Source of the DNA: Echinarachnius parma
Lineage: Eukaryota > Echinodermata > Echinoidea > Clypeasteroida > Echinarachniidae
Assembly (NCBI GenBank): GCA_037951105.1
Contig: JBAMJV010002957.1
Location: forward strand, 62,001-126,000
Direction of reading: 5' to 3'
Length of the DNA stretch: 64,000 nt
The translations under genes were made by a program, and so were the position numbers. Below the pieces are notes generated by a model. It was not told where the DNA came from. It made no database searches and was given only the letters and a program-made list of their open reading frames with translations. Numbering within the stretch: position 1 is the first letter of the stretch; each line of letters opens with the position of its first letter. Positions 19,650 to 59,444 of this stretch are shown here, in pieces.

Positions 19650-19933
19650 TCAGACTGCTGCTGACATTACACCCCCAGCATTACCTTCAAGGTCTGGACT
19701 TACCATATCGAGGCATGCTTGCACAAAGTCCAACAGATTAACAGTTACTGCAATGGCGACGTCAGCTTTCGATTTATTGGATCCGGTATATTGGAGCATG
19801 CGTATACTTTCATCCGGAATGGAATGTCTTGATATATCACCACACGTCGGTGACAGAGTGAGACTAAGTTGCTGTTTACAGCCTTCTGCATCTCTTAAAG
19901 GTCCAGTGTAGATGATCGCAACCAAGTGTTTAC
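19650..19933 (-). CDS. Gene B exon 12: end of cytoplasmic domain
   Basis: Acceptor ttactag, entry phase 1, stop TGA. KHLVAIIYTGPLRD corresponds to the strand and loop at the G4 position of GIMAPs, followed by a helix LLDFVQACLDMV. Matches gene A exon 12. Confidence 0.75.
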
Positions 19934-22900
19934 CTAGTAAACATGGTAAAAGGTAGTATGGAAATCATAATACAGTAGTTAAATAAAACAATGAACGATC
20001 TAGGGTACGTTGTGTAAAGGAATGAACTTTATTAGTACTATAGTAATAAAATACACATTCAAATGGATGCCTTAATAATCATTTGTCAACAAATGAAATA
20101 AGTCGAATAGTGTCGTTGAATTCCACCTCATGTTATATTTCGTATCTTGTATTTTATAATTGTATATGTATATTTCTCTTATTTTCACACCTTGTAATTT
20201 GTTGCTTAAAAACAACAAGTTACCTAGGTCCATGTGTTTGTCATGTTTTTTTTTTTTTTGATTTGATGTCAATAAAGCAATGATAGAAAACAAAATGAAT
20301 GGATTTGACTAATCACGTTGCTGAAATTCAAAATGTTTATCATATTGAATTCTGTCTTGAATCTTTAATGTTCAATCACGATCAAGTAACTATGTGAACT
20401 TGACTTGTCTTTTGCAATTAGACAAACACACATATAATAGTGTTTAACTTACCATGAAGTCTATCAATTTCTGCTGACTTGGTTCGAAGAGCATCGCGAT
20501 CGTTTTCACTAAGTTCGACTTTTCTGGATTGACACAAACAAGAAGAAGTATCTAAGACACATATATGACTACACAATCGGATCATTTTGTGTACACTACT
20601 TGTTACCTCGGTTACAATGAATTGAATGCATGATAGTATAACTAACTTCAGCCATCATAATTAATATTACAATCTAAACATATGTTGGTTTCCTGTACAT
20701 GTTAGCATGCTTTACGAATACGATATTTTTAGTAAATATTATTAAGTTCACGTCAACAAGAATGTAACCGGACTTCGTCTGCTAATAGTAATACGGAAAT
20801 AGGGTATTTTAGAGGATCACATTGATACTCATAATTGGTATCATAAAACCTATACCCCATGTAAAAAAAAGCCCTTTTACAAAGAGTTCAAGTTCAATAG
20901 TTACAAAGAGTTTTCAGAAAAGAGAATATATCTAAATTTACATAAGGTTTAGCTCGTTTTATAGTCGGTTACTGTTGTATTTTACCACATCCAGTGACTC
21001 TAAATCTCGTTTTAATTAGAAATTTTAATTATGAGTTTCTGAAAATGTTTCCCTATCAACAAAAACCAAAACGATTTAGGTTGCTGTCCTCCCCATAAGG
21101 TGCATGGTTAGAATAACAATAGAAAACTCCTTCTGCGTTTTGCCTCTTTTCGTTATTAGGAATACATGTACTCTGATTTCTGAATTTTGACCTAGAACGT
21201 TTATACACGACTAACACAAGCAGTTACGTCATATAAACCGATTCTTTTACATATATTGGGTTAAATGCTACATAATTTCAAAAGCTTAATATTTTATATG
21301 ATACCAATATGTGAATATAAAATTGACTTGATATATTACTAGCCGAATATAACGCACATTTATCTGACTAAAATTGCAAATGTGAAAGTGGTCCTGACTA
21401 CAAAAGTGCGCAACATTTGGCTTTCAAATTGACTTGTATTTTTTTCACGGAGATTCCAAATATGCTAAAAGTTTTTTTCTCGCCCCCCCCCCCAAAAAAA
21501 AAAATTAACAAGCAATCTAAGTAAAAAATCACCATCGATAACGCCCCTTAAACAAACAAAGTTGGGATTTGTCTGCACAGATGCAAATTATATTATAATG
21601 TGATAATGCAATCATTATTTTGTTTTGCTGGGCCATGTAAAAAACATTATATTTAAATTGACGAACCTATATTCACAAACGACGAAATGGCAATTTACGT
21701 CCACCTGAACATCATTCTCATTTAAATTGGCATCTGTATCTGTATGTAAATAACAATTGAAATACATGTCAAATTTGTATCTCGTTCAAATAATACTGAA
21801 GTATTTGTTGTTGGTTTACATAGAATGGAGCATATTCATCAATTCGTCCATTCAAATTTGTTATTTGTGATGCATTAAACATTATTCAATATGTTATAGC
21901 AGTTTGATTTGTCATTTTTAATCCTCATTTCCACCGGGAATTACATAGTCCTGCCTTAGACATGTTAGATATGAGGGTTTTGCATGTCAGCTAATTCATG
22001 AAAAGTGACTATGGACTTGATATCAATAGATCAAGTGCAACCAGCTGGCCGAGCCGACAATAACCAGAGTGTGACACACACTCGTGTACACACCCACTGA
22101 CTTGTAAACAGCTTCTCAATTTTGTATAATGTTTTTTTCTTGGACCAAATGTTGAACTCTACTTTTGAAAATACTGATTAATTGTGTGAAATTGAGTGAA
22201 TTACGCATCTCAAACACATGAGACAAGAGTGTACACTTTTGAGCTATCATATGCGCCAATGTGGATAATATCCATGCCATAGCTTTAGTTGTATTTGACA
22301 CCTCGTATAAAAAGAGATTTAGTGACAATGGCCGGTATTCTACTAAATGTATCATCTTAGGCTAGACTAAAACAGTCAGAAATTCCCAGTAACCAGTTAA
22401 ACCAGTTCAGAAAATGGAATTCAACAATCACATTGATGGTTGTCATGCACCACTTCTGATTGTTTCTTGTCATTATACATCCAGACAATATGATGCTTGA
22501 CATTCCAATGACGTGGTTTAACATGTCTCCAGTATTATACTGCCCTTTTAGTTGGAGGACATAATATTGCTGGTGACTTGTTAAACAATCTCTTCGGAAT
22601 GTTAGTCTGAGGAGAAACAATAGGGTTTATCTCGGGTGGTGCATGAAAATAATCAATGTGCTAGTCAAATTCCACTGGGATGGAATGGTTTGTATTGGGT
22701 AGTGGTGCTGTTATGTCCATTTAGTCTGGCCTAAGTTGATAAATATTTAGTAAAATACCACCCATATAGTTTAAAGATATATTCTCAATTTAATTTGGTC
22801 AATATAAAACAAATATAGACAATACAACGAACACTGGCGTTTGACAAACGTTACATGTAAGCTGATTTTGTACACAATCTGAGCTATTTTTCAATCTAAC

Positions 22901-25900
22901 CCCTACATTAATTTTTTCCACCTCTATAATTATTAAGAAGTTTTTTTGTGACACTGTAGCCAAATGCCTAAATTGCATAATTAGCACAAACAAAGGCTAC
23001 ACAGGGACTTATCTGTAAAGGGGCATTTCCTTGAAAATTAAGTGTCCTTTGTTAATCCATTTATTTCATTTTTGCGACAAACAAAATGAACATGCAACCA
23101 TTCAATATTACCTTTGACCACCCATAGTCGAATGGAATCCGTGAGATTCTCTGAAACTGGTTTATTAGCTCCTCGAAGATTTTTGAGAATAGACTGATAT
23201 TTATCTTCACCTAGAAAATATAAACACAGGGATTAAATGGTGGAATACGGTTGAAGTTATATTACAAGACTAGTGTTTAACTCATACAACCTGTATATAA
23301 AACAGAAGAACCAAGATAACTATGTAAAGAGAGATAAAAACATACATGCAATACTGTTCAGACGGGAGGTAGAAAAGTAAGTCCAAAATATACTTTCATA
23401 AGAAGTAAACATTTGTGTACAGCTTTATTTAGATTGAGAACTTCAATATTTGTTCAATTCCCATGCCCTTCCTATGCATTATGATGTTCAGACTTGTAGC
23501 GTTTCATTTTATAGCTCGACTGAAAGCATCTAGGTCTAAAATGTACATCGTTTCTATATATATGTATTCTTAACATATGTAATGGAAAATTACCAGAGTT
23601 TGCACGTTGCAGAGCGTTAATAAAGGCCGCAATTGCTTTGTTATCCATATCAACATGGTGCATACACAAGTTCGTGAAGCGAGATGTGCCTTCTTCTCTG
23701 CCCTCTGCAAAATTATTTATCTCTTTCCTTTTCTCTCTAATAGAACGATCTGTAAACAATAAGAGCAGTGATATCGTTATAATTAACCTTTCATTTCAAT
23801 CATTTTATTTTCAGACTTTAAATCATAAAATACAAAATACAAGTTCATATACATAATATGATCATACAATTAAAATATCATAAACATAGAAAGTTAGATT
23901 CAAGTCACGTAATATGAAATTGAAGTAAATGTATTATTATAAGGAAATACGGAATGCCCGCAAAGCTCGGAGAGCTTGACAAAATTATCACCCCAGGTGA
24001 AAATGGTAAGATAGTATAGTATACATCAATCCTGGTTGAACAAAGGGAACAGGTTTGGGTTTGTCAATTATGACGTTTCCCCCGAACATGAAATGACATC
24101 ACTGAGCAAGGAATACAATTAGGTGTGTGCAGTCGGTGTGTGCCCATTGTTGGAATATTTTGCCTCAATAAAGTCGCAATTTTGGCAAATTTACATTCTT
24201 CAAATATGTTTCTACAAGGGAAGGTTGAACAGTTTTATAGTTCATAATTTCATTCATGCTATCGTGAACTTCACTATGATCTTATTCCAGAGAAATCAAT
24301 CTTATTTTACTGTTCTATCATGTCCACTGACGACAAAGGTCTACCCACTTTGCCGGTAAAAATACTATATAGATAGTTGACACAAAATATATGCTACTAA
24401 AACAAATGACTTACCCATAAGAGGATGAGAACTGTCATTATGATCTGAAAGAAAGCAACATAAGAATGTTAAAGGATATCATGCAAAACACATTACATTC
24501 AAGTGTTTGGTTCTTATCGAATACATCAATGACATTATTTCGAAGACTATGAAGTAAAATGTAATATAATTAGTTGTTTAAATAGTAGTAGTTTTATCAG
24601 TGGAGGTGTTGTTGAACGATTCTATGGGTGTCTGACTCGAAATTTGGGGGTCCCAGGTTCGAAGCCAATCGATGATGTCCTGCCATGTATATCCAGCAAA
24701 TATTTCCATTCAAATGGCTGCTCTTTATCCAAGAGTATAAAGGGGTGTACATAAGCCTGATGCGCCAATACGAAGGGCACAAGGAAACTGTGCGGGTTTG
24801 CAACCTGCCCAGATTATCAGGGGAACTGTATGATGACAGATGTGTGCGCGTTATGAATGTAAACATAATACTATTAACAACAGATTAATTCAAAATGGAC
24901 CACTGCTCGTCCATATTTGTTCATAGTGTTACCTAGGTTAAGTATGATCTGCATCCATATAATTTAATGAAGACATTCTGCATTATTTCTGTTTTTTATC
25001 ACATAATTCATAAAATGCTTACGAAATAGAAAGAACAATAGACAGAAAGTGTAATAATTGTTTGCAGTTGTGCATTAGGAATGTGTCTTGTTAGACCACC
25101 TTATTAACCACCCAAGGGAAACAAGAAAATTGTTAATAATAATAATTATTGTATTTATTATTAATTTGTGTTGTTATGTAAGCATGGGGGTATACATATC
25201 TGCGTTGGTATTACATGTACTAGTATATGAGAAATATAATGTTAAACTCTTGATAACTGTACAGATGTGTAAACTCCCAATAATAAATGGTTACGTCAAA
25301 AAGATCAAGTCATAGCGCAGACATAGCGCGGCTGACGAACGTTGTAGATGACAGACGAAATTTGGAGGGAAAATAATATTTGTATTGTTATCAGAACTGT
25401 AAAATTATCTTAGTTATAGTTGTTGCTATAATAATATTAGAAGATTTGGTTTGCTGGATTGAGAGTAGTTTATAACTGGTTTGGGTCATATAATGATTAT
25501 ATTACCCTCACTGAAGTACTGCTCTAAGGTACCACAAATCACTTATCAGAAGTGATGTTGTTACCCTAGAGCAGTACTTCAGTAAATAAAGTGAACCTGA
25601 TAACTCTCAATCTAATCGAAAGCTTACCTGTTCCTGGTGTGCTGGATCTCCCACGTCGTCTCCTATTCTTGTACTTGTAGAACGCTGCAGCTGCGATGAT
25701 AGCCAATACAATAATGACACTCACGGAAATAGAAATGGCGATCGCGGTGACATCAGTGCCTGACCAATAAATGATATACAAGAAGAAATGTTTGTAAAAT
25801 CGTGACATGCAATATAAACAATTCACATTAATTATAAACCTACTGTAAGTAGCTACCGCGACTAAAACGTAGTTATCATGACTAAAACGTCATTCACTCG

Positions 25901-28900
25901 ACTTACATTATGTAAATTGTGGGAACGGTTTAAAAAAAACATACATGCCCTGAATACCACTTTGGCGGCATCGTTCACATGGGCATAGACAATGTAATTT
26001 AAAAACTAAGACAGTTGCATGTTACAAGTGGTATCGTTACAGTTTCAGATTAAGAAGGCACATGCCCTTACACAATATTTACCAGTACATATGACGTTCA
26101 TAGTCAATGATGGGGTAAATCCTGTTTTTAGTGACCACAGGTATGTTTATATATCAGCCAACCTGCCTCAAGTTTTTCGTGCAATACGTGTGAATACTCA
26201 TTGCTATCCCAATAAGAATAAGACGCTTTACGTTCTATATCGACCGTGACCGAAACAACCTCTTAACACGTTCACATATGTTTAATCGACGTTCAATGCT
26301 GTACGTTTATACTAAATTGCATTTCTTGATTCTGCTCTACTATTATTCATCAATGATTATAGTGTTCATGCAATAAGTAAACAAATCATTTGTATATGGT
26401 TCGATTTGGCTAAATTCAACGCACCTCGCTGTACCGCGATCACTGTAAACTCCGCGAATCCCATAACTCCCCGTCCTTCGGCTCTGCATGTCAAATTGTG
26501 GACATTTACCAAGTCGGCAATGCCATCTAATGTCGCAATGAGGTCATACGTTCCGTCAGGCCTTCGTGTATGAGTGGAAGCATTGCTCAACATTGCATTC
26601 CCATTCTTCAGCCACGTTATTCGGACCGGTGGCCAGACACCGCGGACTGAACAGTCGAGTCGATCGTGGTCGGCTAGCGTCATTTCACACGTGGTCGTTT
26701 CCGCGACATTGTTCTCGCCTTGCTGGGTGTTGCACTGGTGAATGCGAATGAATGGCTTTTCAGCAAGAGCTTCATAAGAAAATTGGTAGAAAAATAATTC
26801 AAATTGTTTTGAACCGTGGCAACTATGGCATTGTAGATACTACAATAAAAACATCGAAAGCAATGTGTCTTTCCTGTTTCAGAGGAACACACATATCCAG
26901 ACTTTTTGTATTGTTACAGTACCAACGGCCATTCTGTAGTTTGTAGCTTATTTTATTATTTTCCTTTTACTAACTCACCAAGTTTCTAATACAGTGTAAT
27001 TGTATGCATGAAACTTATAAACATGCAAAAGAAATCAACATATTATCATTATTTTGGTCAAAATGTCACACCTCTCGTCAGCTAAAGGGTATTATTAGAA
27101 CAAATTATTCCACTTGTGCCTCAGACAGATTAAAATAATTATAATAATTTCATCCATGAAAATCAATATCATTCACCTTTTCAGATGCTAATTGTGTATT
27201 TCCTCATCAACTACTTGATATGTTATGTGTACAAGAAAACGCACAATATGACAAATGAAATGTTACTTCTAAACTTAATTTTTTTTTAAATCATCTGAAA
27301 ATATTGTTTCCTTAAATATACCTGTAATGAAAATGTCGGTATAGTTGTGGAATTCTTGTTGTAAGACAGCGTCGGTGACTTGGCATCTATACCGCCCTTC
27401 ATCGCGAACTCCGACATCGTAAATCACGAGAGTGAAATCATCAGTCACGTGATGCCGGTCATCCACTACGCCATACAGACTCGTTTTACTACTCTCATTT
27501 CGGCTGTTATCAAAGGTCTATATTATGAACATTGTTAAAATAACGGAAACCACATGAAGTATGAATATATTATCCACGATATAAGAAAAATATTTAGCAG
27601 AATTTGAAACATAATTGTACATTCAAAATATAATTTTTTAAAAGCATCATATTTCGTTTTTGGAATGTATCAGTTATTTTTACGGGGTACGCTATTTTAG
27701 TGTTAAACTAAAACGTGTACGTTATCATAATACACTGTGTATTATTATCATAATTATCATATACTAACAACGCAGTTATAATTCAATGAATCTTAATTGG
27801 TAGAAAGTCATATAAACGGCTTAGTAATAACAGGGGTGATTTTATTCAAAAGGCAGTTGTTCACACAAGAAGGCGCCCTTCAGACGTTTCAAGTTTCAAA
27901 CCTGTTTTTAAAATCAAAATGAGTGACTGTCGTAAACGCTAAAAAAATAATCAATATAGAGAGATCATGAAAAACAATTTTATAAAACATGTTTGCTATG
28001 CTTTTATTTAGGATTTATAAATATTGCCTTAAATTATTGAATAAAAGTTGGTCCTCAATATGTATTCCAGTAATATATTTATGGATATTTTAACTGTTTG
28101 TGAACCGATTTCAGTCAAACAACATTGACTCTGTCTTAAAAATTGTGTGCTTTTACAAATGTTACTTTTATATTTTCATTTCCTCATATTTTAATTTCTT
28201 TAAAGCGCCTTTTAAACCAAAACTAACTACCCCTTTAAAATACTTGTAGGGCTTTCAGACTTACAGTGTCCATGACGTTAGAGGGCGCTAACTCTTTATT
28301 CCAGCGGATGTCTGATGCGTTCCTCTCGTAAGAACAAGGAAGACTAACGTTTAAACCGATGTCAAAGGTCGCCGTTTGAATAGTGGTTACAACTGTCGCT
28401 GATCTCTCTGTTGACAAATGATTAATGGTTATTACTGCATTTAATGCACATTACAGCAACCTTTATTTTAAACTCGAAAATAAACTCACACTTATATGCA
28501 CAGACAAACGCGCTACCGAAATGAATATATATTACGTACTTAACGAATTTATTTATTAAAGTGGACTTCCACTCGAGTTCAAGCTTCTAATGATTGAAAG
28601 ACAGATATTCTAGGTCAATAAACACAATTTTGTATGAAAAAAGTATGATTGTGGGTTCTTATAATTGGCTTTGAAATTCTAATGACACAAATTCGCGAGC
28701 GAGCTTGTTCTATCCCACAATGCACCAATTTGTGACCTGCGACACTCACTATGCGCCTATCTATGTTTTTACACTGCAGCGAATGTGTTCTTTTGATCGG
28801 ACCAATACAATGCTCGATCATGAATAGTTTAGTCCACGATGCGCCATTCAACCGTGCCTTTGAGCATTACTACATTGTTGAACCGTTTGAAAATACTTGC

Positions 28901-31900
28901 CTGTCCGAAATTGTAAAACGTTTGGCTTTTATTGAAATTTGAATAGACACAAAGTCCTGTAAACGTGGTTATTGAATTTGCTGGCTCTGCATGACCGGCT
29001 ATTATGAATGACACATGCAGTGATCACAATGCAGTGGCGCCGGATTCAAGCCTACTCAAGAAATTGAGCAAAGTGAGGTGCTACGTGATTGTGTGCAATA
29101 AATTTAATTATTTCCTCAGAGTTAATGACATTAGAAAAATCTCTTAGAAATCAACCAAAGAGAGTCAAATCCTGAAAATATTCAAGCACATCCCTAGATT
29201 TATTTCCAATATACTGTATTTTGTTTAAACTCGTCCGGAATTCTCCTTTAAGATCGGCAAACACAGATTTATCAATGTAAGATATCTAAAAAGAAACACA
29301 TATTGTCTTGGACTTGCTGGTGTATATTCATTAAAGTTATAATGTGCGACTGTAATAACAGGGGCCCGAAGACTAGGTTAGAAGGTATGTGGGGGTGTTC
29401 GAGCATTAACGACTAGGACAAGGGCCTGTTTTCCTTGCAAACGTTTGTGATCATTTAGTATCATTGACCGACATGTTTTAACAGAGCATACTGAAGACAT
29501 CAAATTGAATCGAACTTTACAGATCATACATGCGATATCGTCATGAAAGATGAGTATAAAAACTTACCCACTACCACAACTTCTGTGGAATTCTCGAGCG
29601 CCCATCCTCTTTCCTTGTCTGATACTGTGCAGATGTACAATCCAGCGTCTTCAGGCTCGATTCCGTTGATGATGAGAGAAAAGTCGTCTGTAATGTTAAA
29701 TCGTCCGCCATCGATGTAACCATCGCCGCCTCTCGATACACCTTGTTCGAGATGTAGGTATACAACGGATGTTCTTTCCTTGTCCCATTTTGCTATACGA
29801 ACTGATCTGTCGTAGACACATGGCAAAATCACATTCGTACCCTCTAGGACCACGGCTTGGGGCAGTGTTTTAGGAGCCTCTGATCAAATTTGACAAGAGA
29901 TAAAGGAAATTATCAATGTGTACGGAGGAAATGTGATAAAAACTCATTTTTGACATAGTGTGTCTGCTCAACCGTACGATAACCGTTTTTTCGTCATCCT
30001 TTCCAGATAATTTCCTCACTGGTGCTGCAAAAACTACGGGGACCTAAAATCCAAGATTCCCGCGAGTCCAGTCGGGACCTGTTTTTCCGGGGGAAAGACT
30101 ATTTTACTTGCCTGATATTGTTGCACTTAGTTGCATATAAATTACTTATTTTTAAAGAATGATGTATAATGTACCTCCGTCTTTGCTTTTCCACTAGCCT
30201 TTAATCAAGGCATCGCGTCCGAATAGCTTGCAGGAACGACAGTGCGAGGGGAGACTATCAGGCGAGCGGAAGTCTCAGCTGAACCGTTCGTTGTGATAGT
30301 CGCGCTATCCAGTCGTTTCTGCATAAAAATGCATACCTCACCATGCATTCAGCTCAGCTCAGAAGAGAGGCCTTGTCAAAATGCTACTTTCCCCCTACAA
30401 TTGCCTATTTAGTATTGTATCACAATCGTTATGCAATAATGTTAGCATGGTTAGTGGAGTTTAGCCGGTAATACACATAATCATGATACGGATATTACTA
30501 GAGGCGATTTAAACTGATAATGTTGTTAGAATTATGGCGAATTGGAAACCCAATAATCACTTCAATCCGCTCTAGAACAGCAACTAACTTACTAAATTGC
30601 TGGTTGTGATAGTCGCGCTATCCAGTCGTTTCTGCATAAAAATGCATACCTCACCATGCATTCAGCTCAGCTCAGAAGAGAGGCCTTGTCAAAATGCTAC
30701 TTTCCCCCTACAATTGCCTATTTAGTATTGTATCACAATCGTTATGCAGTAATGTTAGCATGGTTAGTGGAGTTTAGCCGGTAATACACATAATCATGAT
30801 ACGGATATTACTAGAGGCGATTTAAACTGATAATGTTGTTAGAATTATGGCGAATTGGAAACCCAATAATCACTTCAATCCGCTCTAGAACAGCAACTAA
30901 CTTACTAAATTGCTGTTATCTTTTGTATAATTTTCTCTATTAAAAAACCCTGTACATAACATCAGTCGATTGAAGATTGCTATATATATTAAATTCAATT
31001 CAAAACTTTATTTCAGACTCAACTGCACACGGCAGAGGTCCATACATTCCATGTTACATAGATACATCAGAAAGATATAAACATGATGAGTAAAAAACAA
31101 TCAAATATTATTATAACAAGCTAAATTTTACTACGTATACTAACTACAATCTAAGCTATAACAAACACTATAATCTAAATCATAACTGTACGATTAACAT
31201 AATTATACTAATCTAATGTTTAACTTTAACTATAAGTATGCGGTTAAAATACATATAAGTGCTTTACACTCTGTATATGACGTGACAATCTCAGATTAAA
31301 GGGATAGTTGAGTTTTGGTAGAGAGGGCGCGACACAAAATATTTTTTTTGTGAGATAATGAAAAACTGAGTGTCAAATTTGAAAGAGAATACAGTTTTAA
31401 TGGCAGAATAAACTTTATTTGATCAAAATCGGTTCAGAAACAGCTGAAATATCCATAAACATAACCATTTGTAATAAATGTGGGGTCCCACAAGTATTCA
31501 ATAATTTTGAACCAGCCGTTAAAATTTGTTTTAAAAATAATGCTTCCTCTTTTCAAATTTTTTGAAAAGAGGTTTTTAGATAGTTGTTGGTTATCTCTCT
31601 ATCTAATGGCTTGGTACGAACAGTCACGTCACGTTCACGTCACGTCACGTGAAGGTTCTGTACCTTTTGTGAAACAGGTCACCCAAATCTACGAAGTGTT
31701 GGGTTACGTGACCCAACAGTTTGTAGATATACTTTATGCAATTCATGAAAGCTCACGTAAATTGGCGCTTGCGTAAAACAAATTAATGTAAATTGTCGTT
31801 GAGAAGAGACTAATTCTCGGTAAATTTAATCGTGAACGAACCCGTCCTACCTATACTGTAAATACCAATTATAGGCGTACACAGGCCTGGGGGCAGGGGG

Positions 31901-43631: not shown

Positions 43632-43709
43632 AGGTCCTCCTAATACGGGACTGAAAATTAATATTGTTTGTGCACGCTAATTGTGCTTAAAACTATACAT
43701 ATGACACGG

Positions 43710-44043: not shown

Positions 44044-44060
44044 GCGTATCCGCGGAGCTA

Positions 44061-44602
44061 TTAAAGGGGTAGTACAGTTTTGGCAATGCTGAACTTTAGT
44101 AACCAAACCTGGACAATAACATTATAAACTAATAGTTATAACTTCACCATGCTCGAAAGGTATACAAAATTACAAACGACTAAGTAAAAAGCCCGTTATC
44201 ATTCAAAAAGAGCCATTAAAACACAAGAGGGCGCTCTCTAAAAAGGCATTGCTTTCAACCGTTTTTCATACGAAATTATGCATGTGATGTATTATTGAAA
44301 TAATGATTAAATAGAGAGATCTTCAACAACTATTTAAAAAACGCTTTAGACAATTTTTGAAAAAGTGTATGCATTTTTAAATTTTTTTGAAAAAATCATC
44401 TAATTATTTGGGCCCCAAATAATTATAAGATCAGATATATTTATTGATATTCAGCCGTTTCTGGACCGATATTGACCAAATAAAGTTAATTCTGCCATTA
44501 AAATTGCATGTTCTCTCAAATTCGACACTCAGTTTGTCATTACCTCACAAAAAAATTGTGATGTGCAGCGCCCTCTCTACCAAAACTAAACTACCCCTTT
44601 AA
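44061..44602 (-). mobile_element. Family A MITE, full length
   Basis: 542 bp, TTAAAGGGGTAGTACAGTTT ... aaactaccccTTTAA. Well preserved and close to the copies at 46432 and 60489. Confidence 0.92.
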
Positions 44603-44759
44603 ATGACTGGAACGATTCGAAATAACATGATAACGCTATAACGTTTTATATTTGAAACATGTATCAAAACGTTGGAGGACATTTTAAAGTAAAACTGCGC
44701 CGTATCAAACTAACTTCCAAGAACTGCTGCTAGTGTATCTAGTTGTTTATATAAATATT

Positions 44760-45809: not shown

Positions 45810-46090
45810 TTATTGCACCAATGGGTTATTATGACGGAATTTCAAGCTACCTACATGTACGACTTTATTGCCACTGCGGATATTACCTTCCGCGATCTTG
45901 GTAAATTCGTCGAAAATGTCTAACAATGGAAACATTTCTGCTGGATTCTTGTCATCCATGTCATCAGTTTCTTCAGTGATGAATTTACACGTGTCGATAG
46001 CAGCAGCATTCGTGTGTAACTGCTTTATCTCATGCGCTCTGGACTCACCATCGGGTTCACCATGGTACGTAACTATTACGTAATGATCTC
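45810..46090 (-). CDS. Gene A exon 12: end of cytoplasmic domain
   Basis: Entry phase 1, stop TAA. DHYVIVTYHGEPDGESRAHE, then an acidic stretch TEETDDMDDKNPAEM and helix LLDIFDEFTKIAEG. Confidence 0.78.
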
Positions 46091-48811
46091 CTGGAAGAAT
46101 GAACGACACGAGTCATGTGAAAACAAAAATGAAGTACACATGAATAAATGCGAGCGGATCGATTGATAAAACTGCAATAATCGCTATTATGTGTATGTTT
46201 GTGTGTTGCGGTGTCAACACAATGTGTGTTCGAGTCAAACAATTAAGATAAATGTCAATGATTTTCCCGATCTGTCATCTACCAAACAATAATCAGCTTT
46301 TGAATAATGATGTCTTTTCCTGAATACACTATTTGCTCGTGTCTACCACAGGTCATACCTTAAATGCGTGTTCATCATGTGGTACTCATATCGATGCAAT
46401 CGCATAGATGCGTGTTTAAAAAGTACATGTATTAAAGGGGTAGTTTAGTTTTGGTAAGGCTGAACTTAAGTAGCCAAAACCTGCACAGTAACATTATAAA
46501 CTAATAGTTATAACTCCACCATGCTCGAAAGGTATACAAAATTACAAACGACTAAGTAAAAAGCCTGTTATCATTCAAAAAGAGCCATTGAAACACAAGA
46601 GGGCGCTTTTTAAAAAGGCATTGGTTTCAACCATTTTTCATACAAAATTATGCATGTGATGTTTTATTGATATAATGATTAAATAGCGAAATCATCAACA
46701 ACTATTTAAAAAACGCTTTTGAAAATTTTTGAAAAAGTGCAAGCATTTTTAAATTTTTTTTTCTAAAAATCATCTAATTATTTGGGCCCCAAATAATTAT
46801 AAGATCAGATATATTTATTGATATTTCAGCCGTTTCTGGGTCGATTTTGACCAAATAAAGTTTATTCTGCCATTAAAATTGCATGTTCTCTCAAATTCGA
46901 CACTCAGTTTTTCATTACCTCACAAAAAAACTGTGATCTGCAGCGCCCTCTCTACCAAAACTAAACTACCCCTTTAACATGATTCAAGTCAGGATTGGGC
47001 TTTAACTTACCCGGCAAGTTTTGAACAGCGTTCCTAATCCAGGCCTCAGAATTCTGAACACTGCAATTTTGTAGGAAATCAAAATTATGTTAGTCTTAAG
47101 GGAAATAAAAAAAACTATTCTATTCACATTTATCAGATATATCATTCCAGGTAACTTTGTATCTGCTGTAGGAAAGAAGTGAAAGTTGAGAGATAAACAG
47201 TAGCAACTAACATATGATCCTAATCGTCATCGTTAAGAATGATATAATTGATTAATTTATATGTTATTCAATTTGAACACAATGTCTAGATTAGCAATGG
47301 TATAAAATCTTGCTTCATATATATTCGTACAACTGGTTATGAAATATAATTTGAATTTGAATGGATAAGGAAGTTGTGGTTCATCACAATCTTTTCTTTT
47401 AACTTAATTCATAATTCAAATATGCACATTTTGTGTTGAAATCTTACAGCTTGAATTATATTACCATTATCAATCAATACTATGTATGTTTATTCATCGA
47501 ATTCAAAGGAAATTATATAAAGACTATACAACCTAGTTAGGAAGGTGGTGAACTTTCCAATATCATATGGAAAGGGCAACAATTATAATTGTTTTCCATG
47601 ATAGTATAATGCTATATCAGAATAAAATGAATGAGGTGAACAAATATTCACCTGCAAAGTAGAATAGCACAGTGAATATCGTTCTGTTCCACGTGTTCAG
47701 CGATGCTGTGATTCTCGTCTGGAATTTCTTTTTTGATGACAAAGGTTAGAAATACATTATTTGGATTGAAGGGTCGACATTATCGGATTTTTACCTTCAA
47801 ATTAGAGAAAACTAGGGATACTGGAATTAAATTAATATCTCGAGGAAATTTATAATCAATTTCAATACATTTTGCACTGAATCAGTACAATTTAATTTGT
47901 TATTGTTTTTACTTCGTGTCATGGATTTGCAGATAAATGCTGTAAATAAGTTAAATAAATAAGTAAATATTCTACAGTAACTTATTTAGAAACGTATTTA
48001 TTATAGTTACTTTTATTTAGTAGAAAATTTGTGATGTAAATGTGATATAAAATTTATATCACATTTACATCACAAATTTTCTACTTCTGTCATGTTTACT
48101 TCTGTCATAATTGTATACAAACAAACTGATAATTTACATTTTGAAGGACTGACTGCTAGTTTAACCTTTTCAACTTAATAACTGTAGGAATCAAACAAGC
48201 TTTATCTACTTTGAAGACATACGATTTCCAATAAGAAACTCTGCTGAGTTACCCCGTATTAACAAGTTATACTGAACATGATACAGGATCGGACAAATCC
48301 ATTGCCCTAAATAATGCGAACTTTTTTTTCGGGAAATAATTCTTAACCCGTTCCCTTCGAGATTCTGAAATTTCCATGGACATTGTAGATAACCCATTTC
48401 TCGTAAGCAATGGATTTGTCATATAACACCAGTCCAATAGTTCTGGCGAGCTTAGAACATATACCAAAACAATATGATTTCTCAAACTTGAAGGCATCGT
48501 AATACTATTATCAAGTACAACCCCTTTCATTTATAGCATAGGAAAAAAATAACTACGAATTGAGTATCATAGTCAATGATTATGATAGACTCCGTTGTTG
48601 TAATGTTGTCAACGAATTCAGTGCTTGATTTAAAAAAACAAAAGTGGTTTACCGTATAGTGTCATCCGGCAATGTCCCGTAACATCTTTAGTCGTTTCGT
48701 GTGGAAAATCATCTACAAGATATGAATTACAATAAAAATGATAATAATACAAATAATATTGATAAGAATATTAACTATTATAATAACGGTATTAATGTTG
48801 ATAATAATAAT

Positions 48812-48871
<60 letters not shown>

Positions 48872-51800: not shown

Positions 51801-54800
51801 TTATTCATTTAAAGCTAATATGAAAACATATTTGTTAACTCAGTATAGTTTGCTAGATCTTACATAGAAATGTTAAATAATTTGATTTGTTATATCTTGG
51901 AATTGTTCTATTTTGTTTGTCAATAGGAAAGGGCCCTGCATACATTTTAATACATTTTAATATTATTACACGTAATTGAAACCACCACACACTTAATTTC
52001 ACGATATTAGTCTCTTATTGTTTTATGCACCAAGCTAAAGTTTTGCACTATGCACAAATGCACTTCTCAATACGAAACATGTCACTAAATATATTTTGTT
52101 ATTTTCACTCGAAATTAATTCAGCCATGCTCACTTTGAATTATTTTACCTATATTTTATTTTATTTTGAATATAACACACAAATTTATAATACAATTGAT
52201 AAATGGATTTTTAATCGCGTCCCTTGCATAGGTTGTTCTTTATTTGCTAACTCGGCAGAGGCCACAGTCATCATCAAGCTTTTACGCTTACGACACGTGG
52301 TCTCCTGCTTTTTCCTTTATAAGAAACTTACCAAGCATTACATAAGATATCCATTCTCCCCCTTATTTCTTATTTTATATTATGCAGATTATTTTCACGA
52401 TGGATTGGCACCAATTCATATATTTGTTTTTGCTTGTATTTTAATTAGAAACATATTTTGTTAAACTTACATGTTACTCATTTTATATATTTGTATGATG
52501 TTTCTTTGTATTGATGTGAAAAAGTGGAAATAAAATAAACAAACAAACAAACAAACAAATCAAGTCGAGTCGTTCTGCTTAAATGTTGCGATTCGTTGCA
52601 GTTTAGAATTGCTGCAAAAACCGTGAGTATGGGACTGGGGCTTACACTAGTGTTTATTTTTGTTTTGCACACAAGAACACAATATTTTTAAAAGGTATAA
52701 TGTGTGCCCTTTGACAGCCTTTCCACCTTGTACTGTGATTTTCAAACAGAAAACGTTAATAAGAAAAATGTAACAGTATTATTTAATAAGTTAATAATTT
52801 ACCGTGAATTGCGTAATACATTGACTGACGGAAAAGTGTAGCAGTGTTGCTGTCCGAAGTCAAATGATATATTCCCAAGTGAATCTTTCCTATTCCCGGG
52901 ATACCAGAAGCATATCTTTGTATAGCATGTCTTTTCTCCTCTAATTTGACATCTGTCTTTTCTGCAAAGAAGTATACAAATACAAAATGTTTCATAACAT
53001 GATTTTTCATTATTCATCAAGTTGCCAATACGTACAAATTCACTAACTATTCTCACTCAAAAGTGTAACTAACGACTAGCTAGTAATCAATATTGACTGT
53101 TTAATTGAAAGATGGTTTAACTAATATTTCATAATCTCAAACATACAACTGGCATTGGTTAAATTATCATGACAAGTTGATATTATTATAACATAAATAA
53201 ATACAAAAAAAAAAAAAAAAATGTGTATTTATTATGGTTGTTTAAGACCGTAACATTTTTTTCACTTATGATTTCTCACATGTTGGTATTACAAATCTAA
53301 GATAGAATATGACAAGTATTTTTTTCAAAATTTGGCTTCGGCTTCAAGCACTTACCAATTAGTTGTTGTTGTCCACTATCACTAGCATCTGAGAGAGATA
53401 ATCATAGAATAAGTACGGATAAAATGTGCATTTTGGTCAATGCATGTCTTATAGATATAAACATACGTTTTAGTAAGCATGGTTAACACACGACACATGC
53501 TTTACTCCGTTTAATTTCAAAATTGACTGGTATAGTACAACAACCAACCGGTTCTAAGGAGATCTTTGAATGGAGAGTTACGCCAATATAAATAACAATA
53601 ATGTATTAAAGTCACACTGCACATTAGATGTGTAAAGTTGCGCAGTACTTTCAGTTGTGTGATTCATATATTATAGTTCACAGGCTTGCATTAAAGGCCA
53701 ATACGACTCTAGAATAGAGTTTATCTATGCTTATTTATTTCGCATAACATTACCCCGACTCAGATTTCCGCTTTGGAAGTAATATGTGCAAACACTATCG
53801 GGTAGACCACTATTCATGCGAACGCTGGAGGCCGCCATTGTTAGGTCTGTGCGGACTACTGAGAGCGATCTGTGAAGCATTCCTGCATTCACCGGACCAA
53901 ACCATTATTTGAATACTTGTAGACGCTTTGATGAGTCTGCAAATCAGTGAAACGATTTTTTTATCGTTGTGTTCGGCCATCCGCACAGTCGTCATAATTT
54001 GCGAAGCATGTCGGGTAGTTACACGTACATGGCCGCTCCCATCATCTTTTGCCGTCAAGTACAATTTGGATCACAAAATGTTCACAAAATAATTTCAAGA
54101 GATCCAAAGAGATATTAAACATATGACAAAAATGTACATCAAAAAGTCAAAAGATATGTGATGTATTCATTATTACAGATCAACAAAAGTCAACATGCAT
54201 TTGTAAATTAGTCACCCTTTAAGGAATCCTCTAAAATCATCCCCGACAACCAGCGTTACAGTTAACGTACCTACGCTAGTAGGAACATCGTGCCGCCTCC
54301 TTTTCACTAGGTAATATACCAACAATGCCACTGATGCTGCTAAGATAATCAGTATAATAGGAGTAACGATCTTCGCTGTGACATTCTCGCCTGAAGACAC
54401 GTTGACTGTTGAAAATATCAAAGATAAGAGTGATGAATACGATTGTTATACATGACACACCACCATACATGTGCCTAGACATTATTCATTGAAAGCAACA
54501 ATCAATAGGCTGCTAGGTATTATGTATTGCATTTGACAATGGCCCAAATTATCATCAGTGGCTCAACTTTAGTCCGGCCTAAAAAACAAATACTAGTAAC
54601 CAGTTTAACTGCTTTGCATTTGTGGACCCATTGATTGGTGCTATTCGCCATCTGAAATATTGTATTTTTTTCATTTCAATATCCAGTATATTCCTTGATT
54701 TTTCCATCATAACAATGGGCCGCTTGAAATTCATAGCCATAGTATTAAACTATTACTGAAATGGCAAGCAGCCCTTTGTCCTAATATCTAAGCAGAACTA

Positions 54801-57800
54801 GAGAGATTGACTGAAAGGAAACAATTATAATATCTCTGGTGGCGAATGGCAACAATCAATGGGTATGCAGGTGCAAAATGGTTTCACTGGTTACCGGTAG
54901 TCGTTGTCTTTTTAGGCTGGACTTAAGTTGAGCCCCTGATGAGAATTTGGACCATTAGGTTAATTTATCTCTTGTCAGTGTTCACTCATGCCTTTTACAT
55001 GTTTATGTGGCATTTAATAACAGTAATACATGTTGTTTATCTAAAGCTATTAGATTATCCACATTTAAATTATGTAACAACTGAACGATGGTTCCAATAT
55101 TATGAGAACAATATAATCAGTAATGTATAGGACAATTGTAATAATAACACTAACCATTGCACTTTTGAAAGTCGATTTTATTGAAATTCTACAAACCTGT
55201 TTCAACTTGCTGTACCACGATCACCGTTTTCTCGAAGATGCCCATGATACCCCGTCCCTCGGCTCTGCACGTCAAATTATGGGCATTGTCCGGGATACTT
55301 TGTAATTTCGCAATTATGTCGTAAGTTCCGTCAATCCTTCTCGTCTTTTCCAGTGTATGGTTCAACGTTTCGATCTCATTCTTCAGCCATGTAAATTGGA
55401 CCAGTGGCCAGACCGCAACGACTAGGCAATCGAGTTGAGAGTTGTCGGTTACCTCCACTGCACATGTCGCCATCATTGTGACATTTGTTTGCATTTTTCC
55501 TGGTTCCTGGTTGCCGCACTGAGGAATGCGAATGAACGGCCTTTCTGCAAAAGCTCCATTTTACAAAAAATATAAATATAAATAAATAAATGTATATATA
55601 AAAGCTAAGCAAGGACAAAGAAAACTTTGGGAAACTTCCCAAACACGAATGTACGCTGATATATCTCCGACAATGTAAATGGCTAAATCATAACTGCAAC
55701 AAATTGAAGAAATGCCTTTAGGTTAAGTAGTTTAGCAACTGAATGTCCTGTGATCTGATCTGTAGGATTTAAAGAGCAAGATAATGGTGTCAGGGCAAAG
55801 TTTAAAACGAGTGAGTGGTAGTTCAATTTGTCAAATTCTACCAAACTCACTTACAACTTAAACATTGTTTTTGCACCTTGATGTTTGACTCATGATGACA
55901 AAATAATAGATTTTTTTTAAAATACATAAGATGTTCCCCTAATTATGGACCAATTTATGATCGAATAAAGCGTGATCAAGGACTTTTCAATTATATTTAA
56001 AATGGAAGGGCGGTATTTACTGAATCAGTCATACATTTGTTATTCTCTTGTCACGTACCAGTTACAACAATGTCGGTGTGGTTGTAGAATTCTCGTTGCA
56101 AGTCGAGGTCTAGGACTTGACAGCTATACCGCCCTTCATCCCCAATGCTAACGCTGTTTATCGCGAGTGTGGAACCATTGGTCACGTGACGTACGTTATC
56201 TGCATTTCCATACATACTCGTCCTACTACTTTGATTGCCGTTGTCGTGAAGGCCCTGCCAGTTTTGGAATATCAAGTACAGAAGCCATGACGTCATAACA
56301 CTGTATTTTTAGAATGTTCAAATTTGAACTTCATTTTCAGAAAGAACATACAAAATAATGTCCAAATACCGGAAATAAATTGAATATGTTATGTATTGGC
56401 TGAGATAATTATGCCCATGCCAATGAATAACTTTATGAACCAGAGCACTATCACTGATTGCCTATTGAAGTAAAATTCATTCGGATGGGCATATCTCATC
56501 CAATACTTAACATATTTAATTGATTTTCGGAATTTGGGCATTATTTTGTATGCTCTTTCGAAAAATGAAGTTCAAATTAGAACATTCTAAAAAAAAAAAT
56601 GTTTATGACGTCATAGATGACATCACACTTCACCACTCTGTACAGGAAAACGGTATGTAATGATACATCAAAATTTCATAATATCACCACAGGAGATGGA
56701 ATGATGTAAATTTAAAGATCATGCCATGAACTATTCACACGTCCATCATTGTATCATTGTAGCATTTTTACTTGCGTAAATTAAAGAGCTATTTCGACGA
56801 CGGCACTCAATGGTACATGTTTGAAAGACATTAAGTCATATGGTATGATGTACGAAACAGTTTTTACTTATAGTATGTGCTTGTATAATTTCGATATAAG
56901 AAATATATTGGTCAAATCTCAAATATTGGTGGCTTGAAGAGTCTAACTAGCCTGACATGTTAGTGGTCTCCCAAACAACAACTAAGAGCAACTGGCACTT
57001 TAATACGTCTCCCCAGGGGAACGTAGGTACAGAGAAATGTAACGTATATGATTTTGGGTCTTACTATCTCATTGAAGCTAGTTGACATTATCTTTTTAAA
57101 CCAGTGGATAACCGATGCGTTCCTCCCGTACAAGCACGTAATATTTAGATTGGCTCCGAGTTCGTAGGTCGCCGTTTGAACAGTGGTGACGACTGTCGCT
57201 GATATTTCTGTAAATACAGCAAAACATACCCATTTAAATAATGCTAATTAAGAATGTGCAGTAAAATTACCAATTGAAATTAAAAAAAATAAGCAAACAC
57301 AGTTACACACACTAACACGTGCATATAATTTTTCTGATACTTTTCTCAAACTGACCAATGAGAAAACTAAACGATATTATAGCGCCCAACATCTGTTAAG
57401 ATTCTTTTCAAACTCGTAGGTTCAAAATGATAACTCCTTCTTCATTTTTCGACAGTTTAATCATCTTCTACAACCTATAATTTGTATATTCCGTCAACCT
57501 ATTACCCGGTTAAAGATGAATCATGTACACATATTGTATAGAGCTGCGGAGTTAATTCATGGCCAACTGACCTACAACTGTAACATCGGTGTAGTTCTCA
57601 GACGTCGTCCCCGTTGCCGCATCGGATATCAGACAAGTGTAATGGCCATCGTCGTCGGGCTTGATTCCGTAGATGATAAGCGAAAATTCGTCAGTGATGT
57701 TAAATCTCCCGGTATCGTAACCCTCGCCGCCCCTCTCGCCTCCTCCTACAGGATCAAGGTACAGCAGCAATTTCATTCCTTCACTTTGCTGCTTGTACCA

Positions 57801-59444
57801 ATGAACTACCAGAACAGATCTATTGTACCGACATGGCAGAGTTGCATCCGTCCCCTCTAGTTTCGTGATCTGGGGCAGGGTGTCAGGACTCGTTACTCCT
57901 ATACAGCAAGAAAAAAGAGGGTACAATATAAAATACACTGCTATCATACATGCTATTAGAAATGACGATAGAAAGGTAACTAAGTTTATAAAACATACAT
58001 GCCAAATATGCTTAATTGTAGCAACTATCCATGTTGTATCCATGGGCACAAGGGCATATTTTTTATCGGAGGGGGGGGGGGGGGGGGGGGGCGGATAAGG
58101 TATTTGGCCCGAATAATTATCCTTCCAGTTTTTTACCGAAGAAGTAAAACCCCAAAAATGGTCTTCGCTTCTTTGATGCCCAAAAATGATATGTTTTAAT
58201 TTGCATTACATATAAATTGTATATTGTATATAAATATATGATGTTGGTGTTTTCAAAATACTGTCAGGTGGCTTGAAGCTTGCGGTTCAATTGGGTTTAT
58301 TTTTCACACGTACGCCTGCTTCCATATAGAAACTAATACTTGTGCGTCACGACCACGAGATTAATGATTAACGAGATTCGGAGACAAAACACAAATCCGA
58401 ATATGACTGACTTGTACTAATAGCCTAGCAATTTCAATAGCGGTATAACACAAATAGTTTGATCGTATGAAACCGTTTGTCATCATTGTATTCTGTGCAT
58501 TTGCAAATAATGAACTAGATAATGTTATTCGCCGACCCTATAATGCCCTACGGCAATAATTTGGCACAGTCATTTAAGGGATCAATAGGAGCTTTGTTAA
58601 TATATTGTACACAAACTGTCGAAGGAGTGAACAAATTTGTATCTGTGAATTGATGTATGAAACGCAAATGCACGGTGAAATCCAATAACTCATTGCACTG
58701 ATTTTGTACTTTAAAATATAATCACTTCAATCATACATATCTTTATAACGAAAGAGAAATATGGAAAACCGAAACTTGTTCCTGATTCTACAAATGGTTA
58801 AACGAAGAGCGAATTGACGAAATGCATTACTTTGATGATTAAAATAATAGTTTTAGATAACCATCTCATACTAATAAAAGATTTCAAACCTTTAACTTGT
58901 CCCAAATTTGATTTTTTTTATAACTTAAATCATCGAAGAGTAATGGAACGATCCTCAAAATCCATTACGTCACTGATGCAATACTACACGTTTTTCGTGA
59001 AAACCACTGTAGGCCAATCTAATAAGTAAAACTACACATGAAAATGTAAACATATTAATTCATTTTTTTCTTCCCATTTTCTCGCTGCAACAACAAATTT
59101 GAGCGGTAGCATTATTGCTACCCGCGGTCATGTTGATCATCATGTACAGTTCGACCCCGCGAAATATTATCTTATGCACCACCTCAACTCCCTAGGGAGC
59201 ATACCAGCACAAGATGTTCAGGGCGCTACAGGCTAATTAACATGTTGCTAAAGCCCTGAGTTAAAGTGTGATATAATGCGAGATATATTACTGAATATAA
59301 TCAATGTATAAAACAATCATAATGTATCTCAACCATTTTAATTATTGATGAGGTTCCATACATACCCGATACGTTGACTAGTCCTAAGAGGACGTACAGA
59401 CCACTGCAGATTGCCACTTGATGTATCAACCCCTTCCAAGTCAT
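45810..59444 (-). CDS. Gene A: three-Ig transmembrane receptor with GIMAP/AIG1-like cytoplasmic domain (12 exons)
   Basis: Exons in transcript order: 59444-59366, 57898-57572, 57207-57065, 56254-56059, 55544-55197, 54405-54271, 53388-53356, 52961-52803, 48712-48653, 47718-47652, 47060-47011, 46090-45810. They total 1878 nt, one frame, 625 residues. Signal peptide 1-26 (ICSGLYVLLGLVNVS), V-set Ig 1 (27-135), split V-like Ig 2 (136-248), C2-like Ig 3 (249-364), TM 377-398, cytoplasmic 399-625. Over ten N-glycosylation sequons lie in the ectodomain. The cytoplasmic part has strand IHLGIY, then HLTSDSNTAT (453-462) where GIMAPs have GKTGSGKSAT; RMTLYDEN at the G3 position; HCAILLC and HYVIVTYHG as later strands; and a C-terminal helix. 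The catalytic Lys and glycines are replaced, so this is probably a pseudo-GTPase. Paralogue of gene B. No ITIM or ITAM found. Fold assignment is inference; gene structure is well supported. Exon 9 is the least certain. Confidence 0.8.
46432..46977 (-). mobile_element. Family A MITE, full length
   Basis: 546 bp with 25-bp inverted ends (TTAAAGGGGTAGTTTAGTTT...). Sits in the last intron of gene A, 34 bp past exon 11. Confidence 0.93.
47011..47060 (-). CDS. Gene A exon 11
   Basis: 50 bp, phase 2-1, ttgcag / gtaagt. VQNSEAWIRNAVQNLP, the helix between two core strands. Confidence 0.72.
47652..47718 (-). CDS. Gene A exon 10
   Basis: 67 bp, phase 1-2. ENHSIAEHVEQNDIHCAILL: the G3-position loop then the core strand. 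Same length and phases as gene B exon 10. Confidence 0.75.
48019..48085. repeat. Perfect 33-bp inverted repeat, 1-nt spacer
   Basis: agtagaaaatttgtgatgta... reads identically on both strands. It would form a cruciform. Intronic in gene A. Confidence 0.95.
48653..48712 (-). CDS. Gene A exon 9 (least certain exon)
   Basis: 60 bp, phase 1-1, borders ttgtag / gtaaac. DFPHETTKDVTGHCRMTLY. Chosen because a phase 1-1 exon is required here and RMTLY can align with gene B RLWVV. Confidence 0.55.
48811..48893. repeat. (ACT)n microsatellite
   Basis: About 28 triplets with a few TTC interruptions, immediately before a G-tract repeat end (cccgtagctagg). Confidence 0.95.
49103..49265. repeat. Minisatellite catgcgtccggtaaaaa, about 8 units
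   Basis: Units of 18-20 bp, with an A-tract length that varies between units, in an otherwise AT-rich intron of gene A. Confidence 0.9.
49325..49492. mobile_element. Foldback element with central GC hairpin
   Basis: acagatgatgcgcaag ... cgcatcatttgt outer ends; inner arms ttgtttgcacgcggtaac / complement; centre cccactcggcttcgcctcgt. Confidence 0.8.
49640..52563 (+). mobile_element. LINE, 5'-truncated, with (AAAC)n tail
   Basis: ORF2 part at 49915-51867 followed by about 690 bp of 3' UTR and aaataaacaaacaaacaaac at 52532-52560. The left limit is uncertain. Lies antisense in gene A intron 8; the tail is 240 bp from exon 8. Confidence 0.8.
49915..51867 (+). CDS. Non-LTR retrotransposon reverse transcriptase (ORF2, C-terminal part)
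   Basis: 650 codons, uninterrupted. Reverse-transcriptase blocks in order: LKSSKSSGQDGLSMNLIK, NYRPISLLSSISKVLEKL, QFGFRKNHST, FMDLSKAFDTIDH, GVPQGSILGPLLFLIYVND, and the catalytic FADD at residues 370-373, followed by the KFLGVTID block. The upstream apurinic-type endonuclease is absent. Layout and tail fit the CR1/L2/Jockey group. Codon use is much more AT-rich than in the host genes. The enzyme would copy its own RNA at a nicked target; without the endonuclease part this copy is probably not autonomous. The long open frame suggests youth. Confidence 0.93.
   Translation: MTKILRSIATRNRLYKKALRSKDNNDLDKYKKYRNKLTSIIRLSRKLYYSNKILSTQNNNSLWNIIKDLTGKKKHINTNINVNGQDINNLNECANLFNDYFVNIGPTLASKIDAGNNNFSQYLFEPSENSLFFTPTTIYEVVCIVQSLKSSKSSGQDGLSMNLIKQIIHFIVSPLVYIFNISLSTGSCPNLLKVAKVIPIYKKDDPSKLQNYRPISLLSSISKVLEKLVYNRLISFLNEHDILIPNQFGFRKNHSTDFALIQLCDKIIESLAKKEYVIGIFMDLSKAFDTIDHTILLHKLEHYGIRGLALSWFEDYLKNRTQYVYYYSNSSSKLNLTCGVPQGSILGPLLFLIYVNDIIRSSNILTYILFADDTNIIYSHKNIDTLVDTVNHDLCNISLWFKCNKLSLNISKTNFIRFRTINSQDQPQCNLFIDGLSLVEKQSTKFLGVTIDSNLSWNEHIHNITILISRNIGILYKMKYLINDKSLFTLYNTLILPYITYCNIIWANCSKMKINSIFLLQKRAIRICTHSNYLANSNPLFSQLKTLKVYDIHTLQTAIFMYKYTSKTLPASFLNFYLLNVNVHSYLTRHAHDYHLNNPKLSLALRSIRHHGPDIWNNLPNHIKIRTSLYSFKANMKTYLLTQYSLLDLT
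52803..52961 (-). CDS. Gene A exon 8: degenerate P-loop region
   Basis: 159 bp, phase 1-1. KIHLGIYHLTSDSNTATLFR aligns in position with the GIMAP G1 strand, loop and helix. Counterpart of gene B exon 8 (156 bp). Confidence 0.75.
53356..53388 (-). CDS. Gene A exon 7: 33-bp linker exon
   Basis: ctcag / gtaagt, phase 1-1, DASDSGQQQLI. Matches the 30-bp exon of gene B. Confidence 0.68.
53690..54065. other. GC-richer block of unknown nature in intron 6
   Basis: Noticeably less AT-rich than the intron around it, with an 84-codon minus-strand frame (53810-54064) lacking recognisable motifs. Possibly an old repeat. Confidence 0.4.
54271..54405 (-). CDS. Gene A exon 6: transmembrane helix
   Basis: 135 bp, phase 1-1. 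Stalk NVSSGENVT, TM IVTPIILIILAASVALLVYY, stop-transfer KRRRH. Confidence 0.88.
54539..54956. mobile_element. MITE family E
   Basis: aatggcccaaattatcatca at the left, complement at the right; the shared inner arm includes cagtggctcaacttta. 418 bp, in gene A intron 5. Confidence 0.8.
55197..55544 (-). CDS. Gene A exon 5: third Ig domain
   Basis: 348 bp, phase 1-1. RPFIRIPQCGNQE, LDCLVVAVWPLVQFTWLKNE, HNLTCRAEGRGIMGI; C2-set, clearly paralogous to gene B exon 5. Confidence 0.87.
56059..56254 (-). CDS. Gene A exon 4: second half of Ig 2
   Basis: 196 bp, phase 0-1, acceptor tggcag. LAINSVSIGDEGRYSCQVLD. The longer open frame upstream of the acceptor is intronic. Confidence 0.85.
56306..56593. 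mobile_element. Foldback MITE, about 290 bp
   Basis: tttagaatgttcaaatttga and complement; arms of over 100 bp with scattered changes. It starts 52 bp from gene A exon 4. Confidence 0.85.
57065..57207 (-). CDS. Gene A exon 3: first half of Ig 2
   Basis: 143 bp, phase 1-0, donor gtaaga. SATVVTTVQTATYELGANLN, NITCLYGRNASVIHWF. Confidence 0.85.
57572..57898 (-). CDS. Gene A exon 2: V-set Ig domain 1
   Basis: 327 bp, phase 1-1. ATLPCRYNRSVLVVHWYKQ, GRFNITDEFSLIIYGIKPDD, GHYTCLISD; all V-set landmarks. Confidence 0.9.
58040..58190. repeat. G-tract repeat (family H), copy 2
   Basis: gggcacaagggcatattttt, poly-G, then aattatccttccagtttt and gtcttcgcttctttgatgc; matches 39268-39430. Confidence 0.7.
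58574..58800 (+). mobile_element. Family B MITE, partial
   Basis: Left end ttaagggatcaataggagct and internal cttcaatcatacatatcttt; right end lost. Confidence 0.65.
59366..59444 (-). CDS. Gene A exon 1: signal peptide
   Basis: ATG at 59444, donor gtatgt, phase 1. MTWKGLIHQVAICSGLYVLL is followed by GLVNVS: a basic/polar start and hydrophobic core typical of a secretory leader. Confidence 0.82.

Follow-up and report, generated by a model that had tools for sequence, protein, structure and literature searches.

Tandem immunoglobulin-domain receptor genes in Echinarachnius parma with probable pseudo-GTPase cytoplasmic tails, and their P-loop-bearing relatives

Two genes lying in tandem on the minus strand of an Echinarachnius parma contig (assembly GCA_037951105.1, contig JBAMJV010002957.1, positions 62,001 to 126,000 of the forward strand; these 64,000 nucleotides are the window referred to throughout) each place V, V-like and C-like immunoglobulin (Ig) domains before a transmembrane (TM) helix and a cytoplasmic domain, and the question that they raise is what this cytoplasmic domain is. 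We consider it probable, from the sequences, that the two genes, here called A and B, belong, as diverged members, to a family of echinoderm receptors that cross the membrane once and join a V/V/C Ig ectodomain, through the TM helix, to a cytoplasmic domain of P-loop GTPase type. The identity of the tail is settled by relatives in the same genome, because these carry the P-loop, DxxG and THKD motifs.

Results

Exon structure of genes A and B

The exons of the two genes, with e3 to e7 denoting those that encode the body of the tail, are as follows.

29568..29880, minus strand: gene A exon V1 (V-set Ig); Pfam V-set 37.8 bits, donor present, acceptor within the first few bases
28265..28407, minus strand: gene A exon V2a (first half of the second, V-like Ig); 47% to B V2a
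27322..27517, minus strand: gene A exon V2b; 57% to B V2b
26425..26769, minus strand: gene A exon C (C1/C2-set Ig); C2-set_2 33.3 bits, C1-set 28.1 bits
25628..25759, minus strand: gene A TM exon; hydrophobic stretch, then KYKNRRRRGR
24415..24444, minus strand: gene A small linker exon; phase 2-1, position equal to that of the small exon of B
23594..23749, minus strand: gene A e3 (degenerate at the P-loop position); 26-31% to four exons with an intact P-loop
23112..23210, minus strand: gene A e4 (G3 position, degenerate); splice borders and alignment
21667..21733, minus strand: gene A e5; splice borders and alignment
20453..20523, minus strand: gene A e6; splice borders and alignment
19650..19933, minus strand: gene A e7 (G4 position, C-terminal helix, stop); top open reading frame (ORF) of the window against the family profile, weak alone (E 0.053)
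59366..59444, minus strand: gene B exon 1, candidate signal peptide from sequence only; ATG, hydrophobic, donor, fitting phase
57572..57898, minus strand: gene B exon V1 (V-set Ig); V-set 45.6 bits
57065..57207, minus strand: gene B exon V2a; likeness to A V2a (47%)
56059..56254, minus strand: gene B exon V2b; likeness to A V2b (57%)
55197..55553, minus strand: gene B exon C (C1-set Ig); C1-set 24.2 bits
54271..54390, minus strand: gene B TM exon; hydrophobic stretch, with a basic stretch after it
53356..53388, minus strand: gene B small linker exon; splice borders and phase
52803..52961, minus strand: gene B e3 (degenerate at the P-loop position); ranks second among the ORFs of the window on the family profile (E 0.13)
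48653..48712, minus strand: gene B e4 (G3 region); DVTG string present, no strand before it
47652..47718, minus strand: gene B e5 (IHCAILLC); splice borders and alignment
47011..47060, minus strand: gene B e6; splice borders
45810..46090, minus strand: gene B e7 (G4 position, C-terminal helix, stop); splice borders and alignment

Ig exons score over the Pfam cut-offs for V-set, C1-set and C2-set_2, the ectodomain of B reaches 62.8 bits for V-set and 66.3 bits for Ig_3, and the Ig exons of A and B are 47-57% alike. In each gene the TM exon leads into a basic stretch, and this is the type I layout of the Ig superfamily at the level of sequence, and so the Ig domains and TM helix proposed by a first-pass annotation of this DNA were confirmed. 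The phases of the TM, linker and e3 to e7 exons are equal in A and B (2-1, 2-1, 2-1, 2-1, 2-2, 1-1 and 2-end), and all of these exons are stop-free and bounded by AG and GT, the last exon having an acceptor only. The twelve exons per gene that had been proposed were found for B, counting its candidate first exon, and eleven were found for A, with no convincing first exon; a candidate signal peptide exon is thus seen in B only.

Taken on their own, the tails of A and B gave no convincing family in Pfam or NCBIfam and no match to AIG1 (PF04548) in Pfam, and searches of PDB with the B tail alone or with a two-row profile of A and B gave no significant match (MecR1 at E 1.2 with the profile). Methyltransf_23, a Pfam candidate for the B tail at E 0.012, was set aside at 15.8 of the 27 bits required and without other support. 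The strings on which the first-pass annotation based its view of the tail (RLWVVKDANL, RMTLYDEN, CHFVVCEY, HCAILLC and others) are present, and the caspase-like strings VQACLD and YHG were noted in the tails by eye.

Paralogs in the same genome

Searching the 1.2-Gb genome assembly with the C exon of B as query found 17 places, 15 of them besides A and B. At 11 of these 15 loci with a related C-type Ig exon, a homologue of e3 lies downstream on the same strand. One of the 11, on contig C6441, has an e3 nearly identical to that of A; as A's second haplotype, it is left out of the motif counts, which cover the other ten. The P-loop GxxxxGKS is intact in nine of these ten relatives and altered in one (SIMSAEKS, at C6597:44320), and e4 was found in eight of them, with DxxG in seven and ETRG at C6597:44320. 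Two of the eight e4 loci, both on contig C9011, yield the same exon hits at places separated by about 42 kb; these twin loci are either a recent duplication or an assembly artefact.

Four genes were traced further, namely P1 (C662), P2 (C9011), P3 (C6597) and P4 (C2654), and three of them (P1, P3 and P4) have a last exon with THKD. When the phases of A and B are imposed, AG-GT borders fit e3 to e6 in P3 and P4, e3, e4 and e6 in P1, and e3 and e4 in P2. In P1, P3 and P4, the last exon carries, after THKD and before the C-terminal part, a charged insert with basic repeats (about 207, 397 and 306 residues, respectively), which A and B lack. A genome search with a paralog e3 gave 73 matches, 18 close (ten of them at loci opened here) and 55 distant. 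Two of the distant matches, C565 and C2055, have IGLFGRTGCGKSS-type P-loops and DNRG, with e3 and e4 in one exon, and indicate a wider GTPase exon set.

GTPase identity of the tail and its motif state in A and B

The best Pfam match of the P1 core is MMR_HSR1 (24.5 bits, cut-off 21.9), and the full P1 tail is also over this cut-off (22.1 bits), with the full P4 tail (21.4 bits) and the P2 part (16.4 bits) below it; MMR_HSR1 is a general GTPase model, so the match tells the superfamily only. Against AIG1, the P1 core scored 19.0 bits, below the cut-off of 27, over positions 3-131 of the 212 in the model. Among six members scanned at E up to 1, with one of the six sequences containing a transcription error, MMR_HSR1 matched five and AIG1 two, and the distant C565 exon had AIG1 as its best match at 22.5 bits, under the same cut-off. 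Human IFI44 (an approximate sequence) scored 19.2 bits against the family profile, the best of 3000 shuffles reaching 8.7. We conclude that the paralog tail domain is, on its motifs and profile matches, a predicted P-loop GTPase near AIG1 and IFI44, with no single family assigned.

The first-pass annotation had called the module GIMAP/AIG1-like and looked to AIG1 as the top hit over the whole domain. This label was not borne out, since A and B have no AIG1 match, the intact relatives stay below the cut-off and P1 fits MMR_HSR1 better. Its broader proposal, in which an Ig/TM receptor carries a cytoplasmic module of P-loop GTPase type, finds support at the level of the family in the intact-motif paralogs of the same gene plan.

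The tail of A scored 21.5 bits against the family profile, with 7.1 bits for the best of 5000 A shuffles, and of the 2068 ORFs in the window, the three that scored best against this profile were those of A e7, B e3 and A e3, although by itself each score is weak (E 0.05-0.5). Both tails are 21-22% alike to P1. The nucleotide-binding motifs are missing from A and B, a point that the first-pass annotation did not make. The G1 motif GxxxxGK[ST] is absent from both, with HVDMDNKA in A and HLTSDSNT in B at that place, and neither tail holds [NT]KxD or THxD for G4. At the G3 place, A has KDAN, with DxxG found only in its e7, and B has an alignment gap, with a DVTG string earlier in e4. G3 thus appears lost in A and probably in B, and with G1 and G4 also lost, A and B are probably pseudo-GTPases.

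Divergence between A and B

Compared over their whole length, the two tails are homologous (score 103, shuffled mean 47.8, z 4.5, with none of 500 shuffles as high; BLAST E 0.008, 23% identity), and by exon the likeness is clear in two of the five pairs, e3 (none of 2000 shuffles as high) and e5 (11 of 2000). Synonymous divergence (dS) between A and B is 0.58-1.01 across the four Ig exons and saturated in the three tail exons measured (e3, e5 and e7), which are stop-free. In the Ig exons, nonsynonymous divergence (dN) stays lower than dS, with values of 0.31 for dN and 0.70 for dS in the C exon, for instance. Given this difference in dS, the Ig part and the tail of A and B seem to have different histories, perhaps through conversion between the Ig parts.

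Two haplotypes of gene A

Contig C6441 is colinear with positions 4447-23788 of the window in five blocks, some of them separated by gaps, whose identities are 94.5, 79.3 (227 bases), 92.1, 94.5 and 98.5%, and a stretch of 79 residues from a flanking ORF matches just the window contig and C6441. We read C6441 as the other haplotype of A. Comparison of these two copies of A gives dS values of 0.53 (V1), 0.10 (V2a), 0.14 (V2b), 0.15 (C), 0.06 (TM exon) and 0.007 (e3 to e7 together). The V1 proteins are about 60% identical and the tail exons 97-100%, the DNA block that holds the tail being 98.5% identical. Because the introns in the tail block are equally alike, the likeness of the tails reflects background similarity and not selection. 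The contrast between V1 and tail suggests highly divergent alleles; very old alleles, or conversion into V1, would explain it. For B, e7 as a genome query matched only itself, and with its last exon found once in the genome, no second copy of B is known.

Other features of the window

Within the e3-e4 intron of B, at 49912-51867 on the plus strand and so opposite to the gene, lies a 651-codon ORF that matches reverse transcriptase (PF00078, 126.9 bits), by its look of non-long terminal repeat type. Long, protein-like simple repeats occur at about 33445-34121, 35813-36563 and 61870-62688 (DNYPPRQLPP and LSRPPLSPS types). An interspersed repeat of about 545 bases lies at about 44060-44605, 46421-46977 and 60488-61035, each copy being 91-96% like its three nearest C6441 copies. 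A flanking ORF had no match when compared with phages.

Discussion

Several results weigh against placing A and B in a family of receptors with GTPase-type tails. The plan of A, B and their relatives was read from DNA, and scans of 29.9-45 kb for a first exon of A gave just two weak, distant candidates. Among the relatives, e5 to e7 were not found in 4 kb more DNA of P2, in 4.5 kb after e4 on C8636, or in the short stretches scanned at C6598 and C6597:78229, and no e3 was found at four of the 15 loci, two of which run off their contig and two of which (C4930 and C8998) have none within 10 kb. PDB searches with the family or its members gave no significant match (P4 core, TrmE GTPases at E 0.15). 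The B tail scored 8.1 bits against the family profile, with one of 5000 shuffles higher (11.1), and the e4, e6 and e7 pairs of A and B are singly not significant (1310, 608 and 407 of 2000 shuffles as high). Loss of G3 is less certain in B than in A because e4 of B holds DVTG, and between the haplotypes of A the tail has a dN/dS of 1.14 on just five differences, too few to show constraint.

The last of these points bears on the proposal that A and B are decaying pseudogenes in which an unused GTPase part is eroding. Loss of G1 and G4, of G3 in A and probably in B, the low likeness of both tails to P1 and the ratio of 1.14 would all fit such decay. We nevertheless think it unlikely, since the tail exons of both genes are stop-free despite saturated synonymous divergence in e3, e5 and e7, which argues against simple decay, since the splice sites are kept, and since dN/dS between A and B is below 1 in the Ig exons. 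Equally improbable, in our judgment, is that Ig/TM genes and separate intracellular GTPase genes lie side by side and were wrongly joined. That proposal draws on the reading of the joins from DNA, on the intron of about 4 kb between e3 and e4 of B with its reverse transcriptase ORF, and on the TM exon at C4930 and the C exon at C8998 that have no e3 within 10 kb; against it, order, strand and compatible phases are common to A, B, the second haplotype of A and the paralogs, and the phase at the end of the TM exon requires a further exon.

We reject as highly improbable that the tail is a TIR or SEFIR domain and the genes IL-1R/IL-17R-like: the strand-helix order seen by eye and a few strings resembling the SEFIR domain of human IL-17RA (a sequence that agreed with PDB 4nux over the whole matched part) speak for it, but the tails of A and B match neither TIR (PF01582) nor SEFIR (PF08357) in Pfam, the relatives carry GTPase motifs, and the contig of the window holds none of the three SEFIR matches in the genome and none of the 135 TIR matches listed, for which 150 of 426 candidates were scored. 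Many of the listed TIR matches are in ORFs of about 900 residues. Sea urchins have large sets of Toll-like receptors, which these frames resemble. On contig C14600, a COI frame of 521 residues is open when read with the echinoderm mitochondrial code, in line with the echinoderm source.

Returning to a receptor family with a GTPase-type tail, we infer that A and B are expressed and that their tails have a GTPase-type fold, and a signalling role can be proposed. The outer V domain would bind a variable ligand, which may be immune or concern self and non-self. As the GTPase motifs are intact in most relatives, ligand binding outside the cell could there be coupled to nucleotide-dependent assembly of the tails. 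A and B keep an open, spliced and stop-free domain despite the loss of motifs (the splicing being that predicted from the DNA), and their tails may act independently of nucleotide as partners or brakes that assemble with GTPase tails belonging to related receptors, or may act as decoys. It is possible, if doubtful, that these genes represent an undescribed receptor class, in which single-pass Ig receptors with a GTPase-switch tail have active and pseudo-GTPase members and hyperdivergent alleles focused in the outer V domain, and serve self/non-self or pathogen recognition in echinoderms.

Signalling by animal receptors is known to run through kinases, phosphatases, cyclases or adaptor domains. 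An immune-type GTPase built into the receptor itself, if true, would be a different solution. No Ig/TM receptor with such a GTPase tail was found described in a full-text literature search, with subscription journals mostly outside its scope. The words "immunoglobulin" and "transmembrane" are absent from the main text of PMC12373286, and the text available of PMC8195603 mentions that immune proteins of some animals include AIG-GTPases and, in another place, that there are oyster proteins in which immunoglobulin repeats occur with HEPN and DED-TRADD-N domains. Should the arrangement be borne out in the proteins, this is an unusual way of building a receptor, and the present genome offers matched intact and degenerate members for testing; the haplotype contrast (V1 60%, tail exons 97-100%) makes allele-specific recognition in echinoderms directly testable.

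Members of the IL-1 receptor family have three Ig domains, a TM helix and a signalling domain. A and B are like them in overall layout and differ in having no TIR match and a V-set first domain. IFI44, of the IFI44/IFI44L group, carries a TLDc domain and is not known to have Ig domains or a TM helix. The present family may resemble human IFI44, on the approximate sequence compared and with a weak score, in having a P-loop and an IHC-to-G4 stretch in the same order, and differs in its Ig domains and TM helix. Likeness to MMR_HSR1-type GTPases lies in the best Pfam match of the P1 core, which is over the cut-off. With the GIMAP/AIG1 (IAN) GTPases, the intact relatives share a P-loop, DxxG and THKD in GTPase order, but they score below the AIG1 cut-off and their GTPase-type domain is joined to Ig domains and a TM helix. 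Scoring 80 candidates from the E. parma genome against AIG1 gave at least 56 matches at E up to 1, many of them each lying in one uninterrupted ORF of 600-2600 residues, whereas AIG/GIMAP genes are, according to the main text of PMC7053062, not known from Strongylocentrotus. The same main text, in which the word "immunoglobulin" is absent, reports 91 complete AIG genes in Biomphalaria with 19 architectures, none encoding a signal peptide. Among echinoderm proteins, the Ig-NACHT NLRC4 of a sea cucumber, described as an NLR in the available text of PMC8699970, likewise joins Ig to an NTPase, the NTPase being a NACHT domain there and of GTPase type in the present family.

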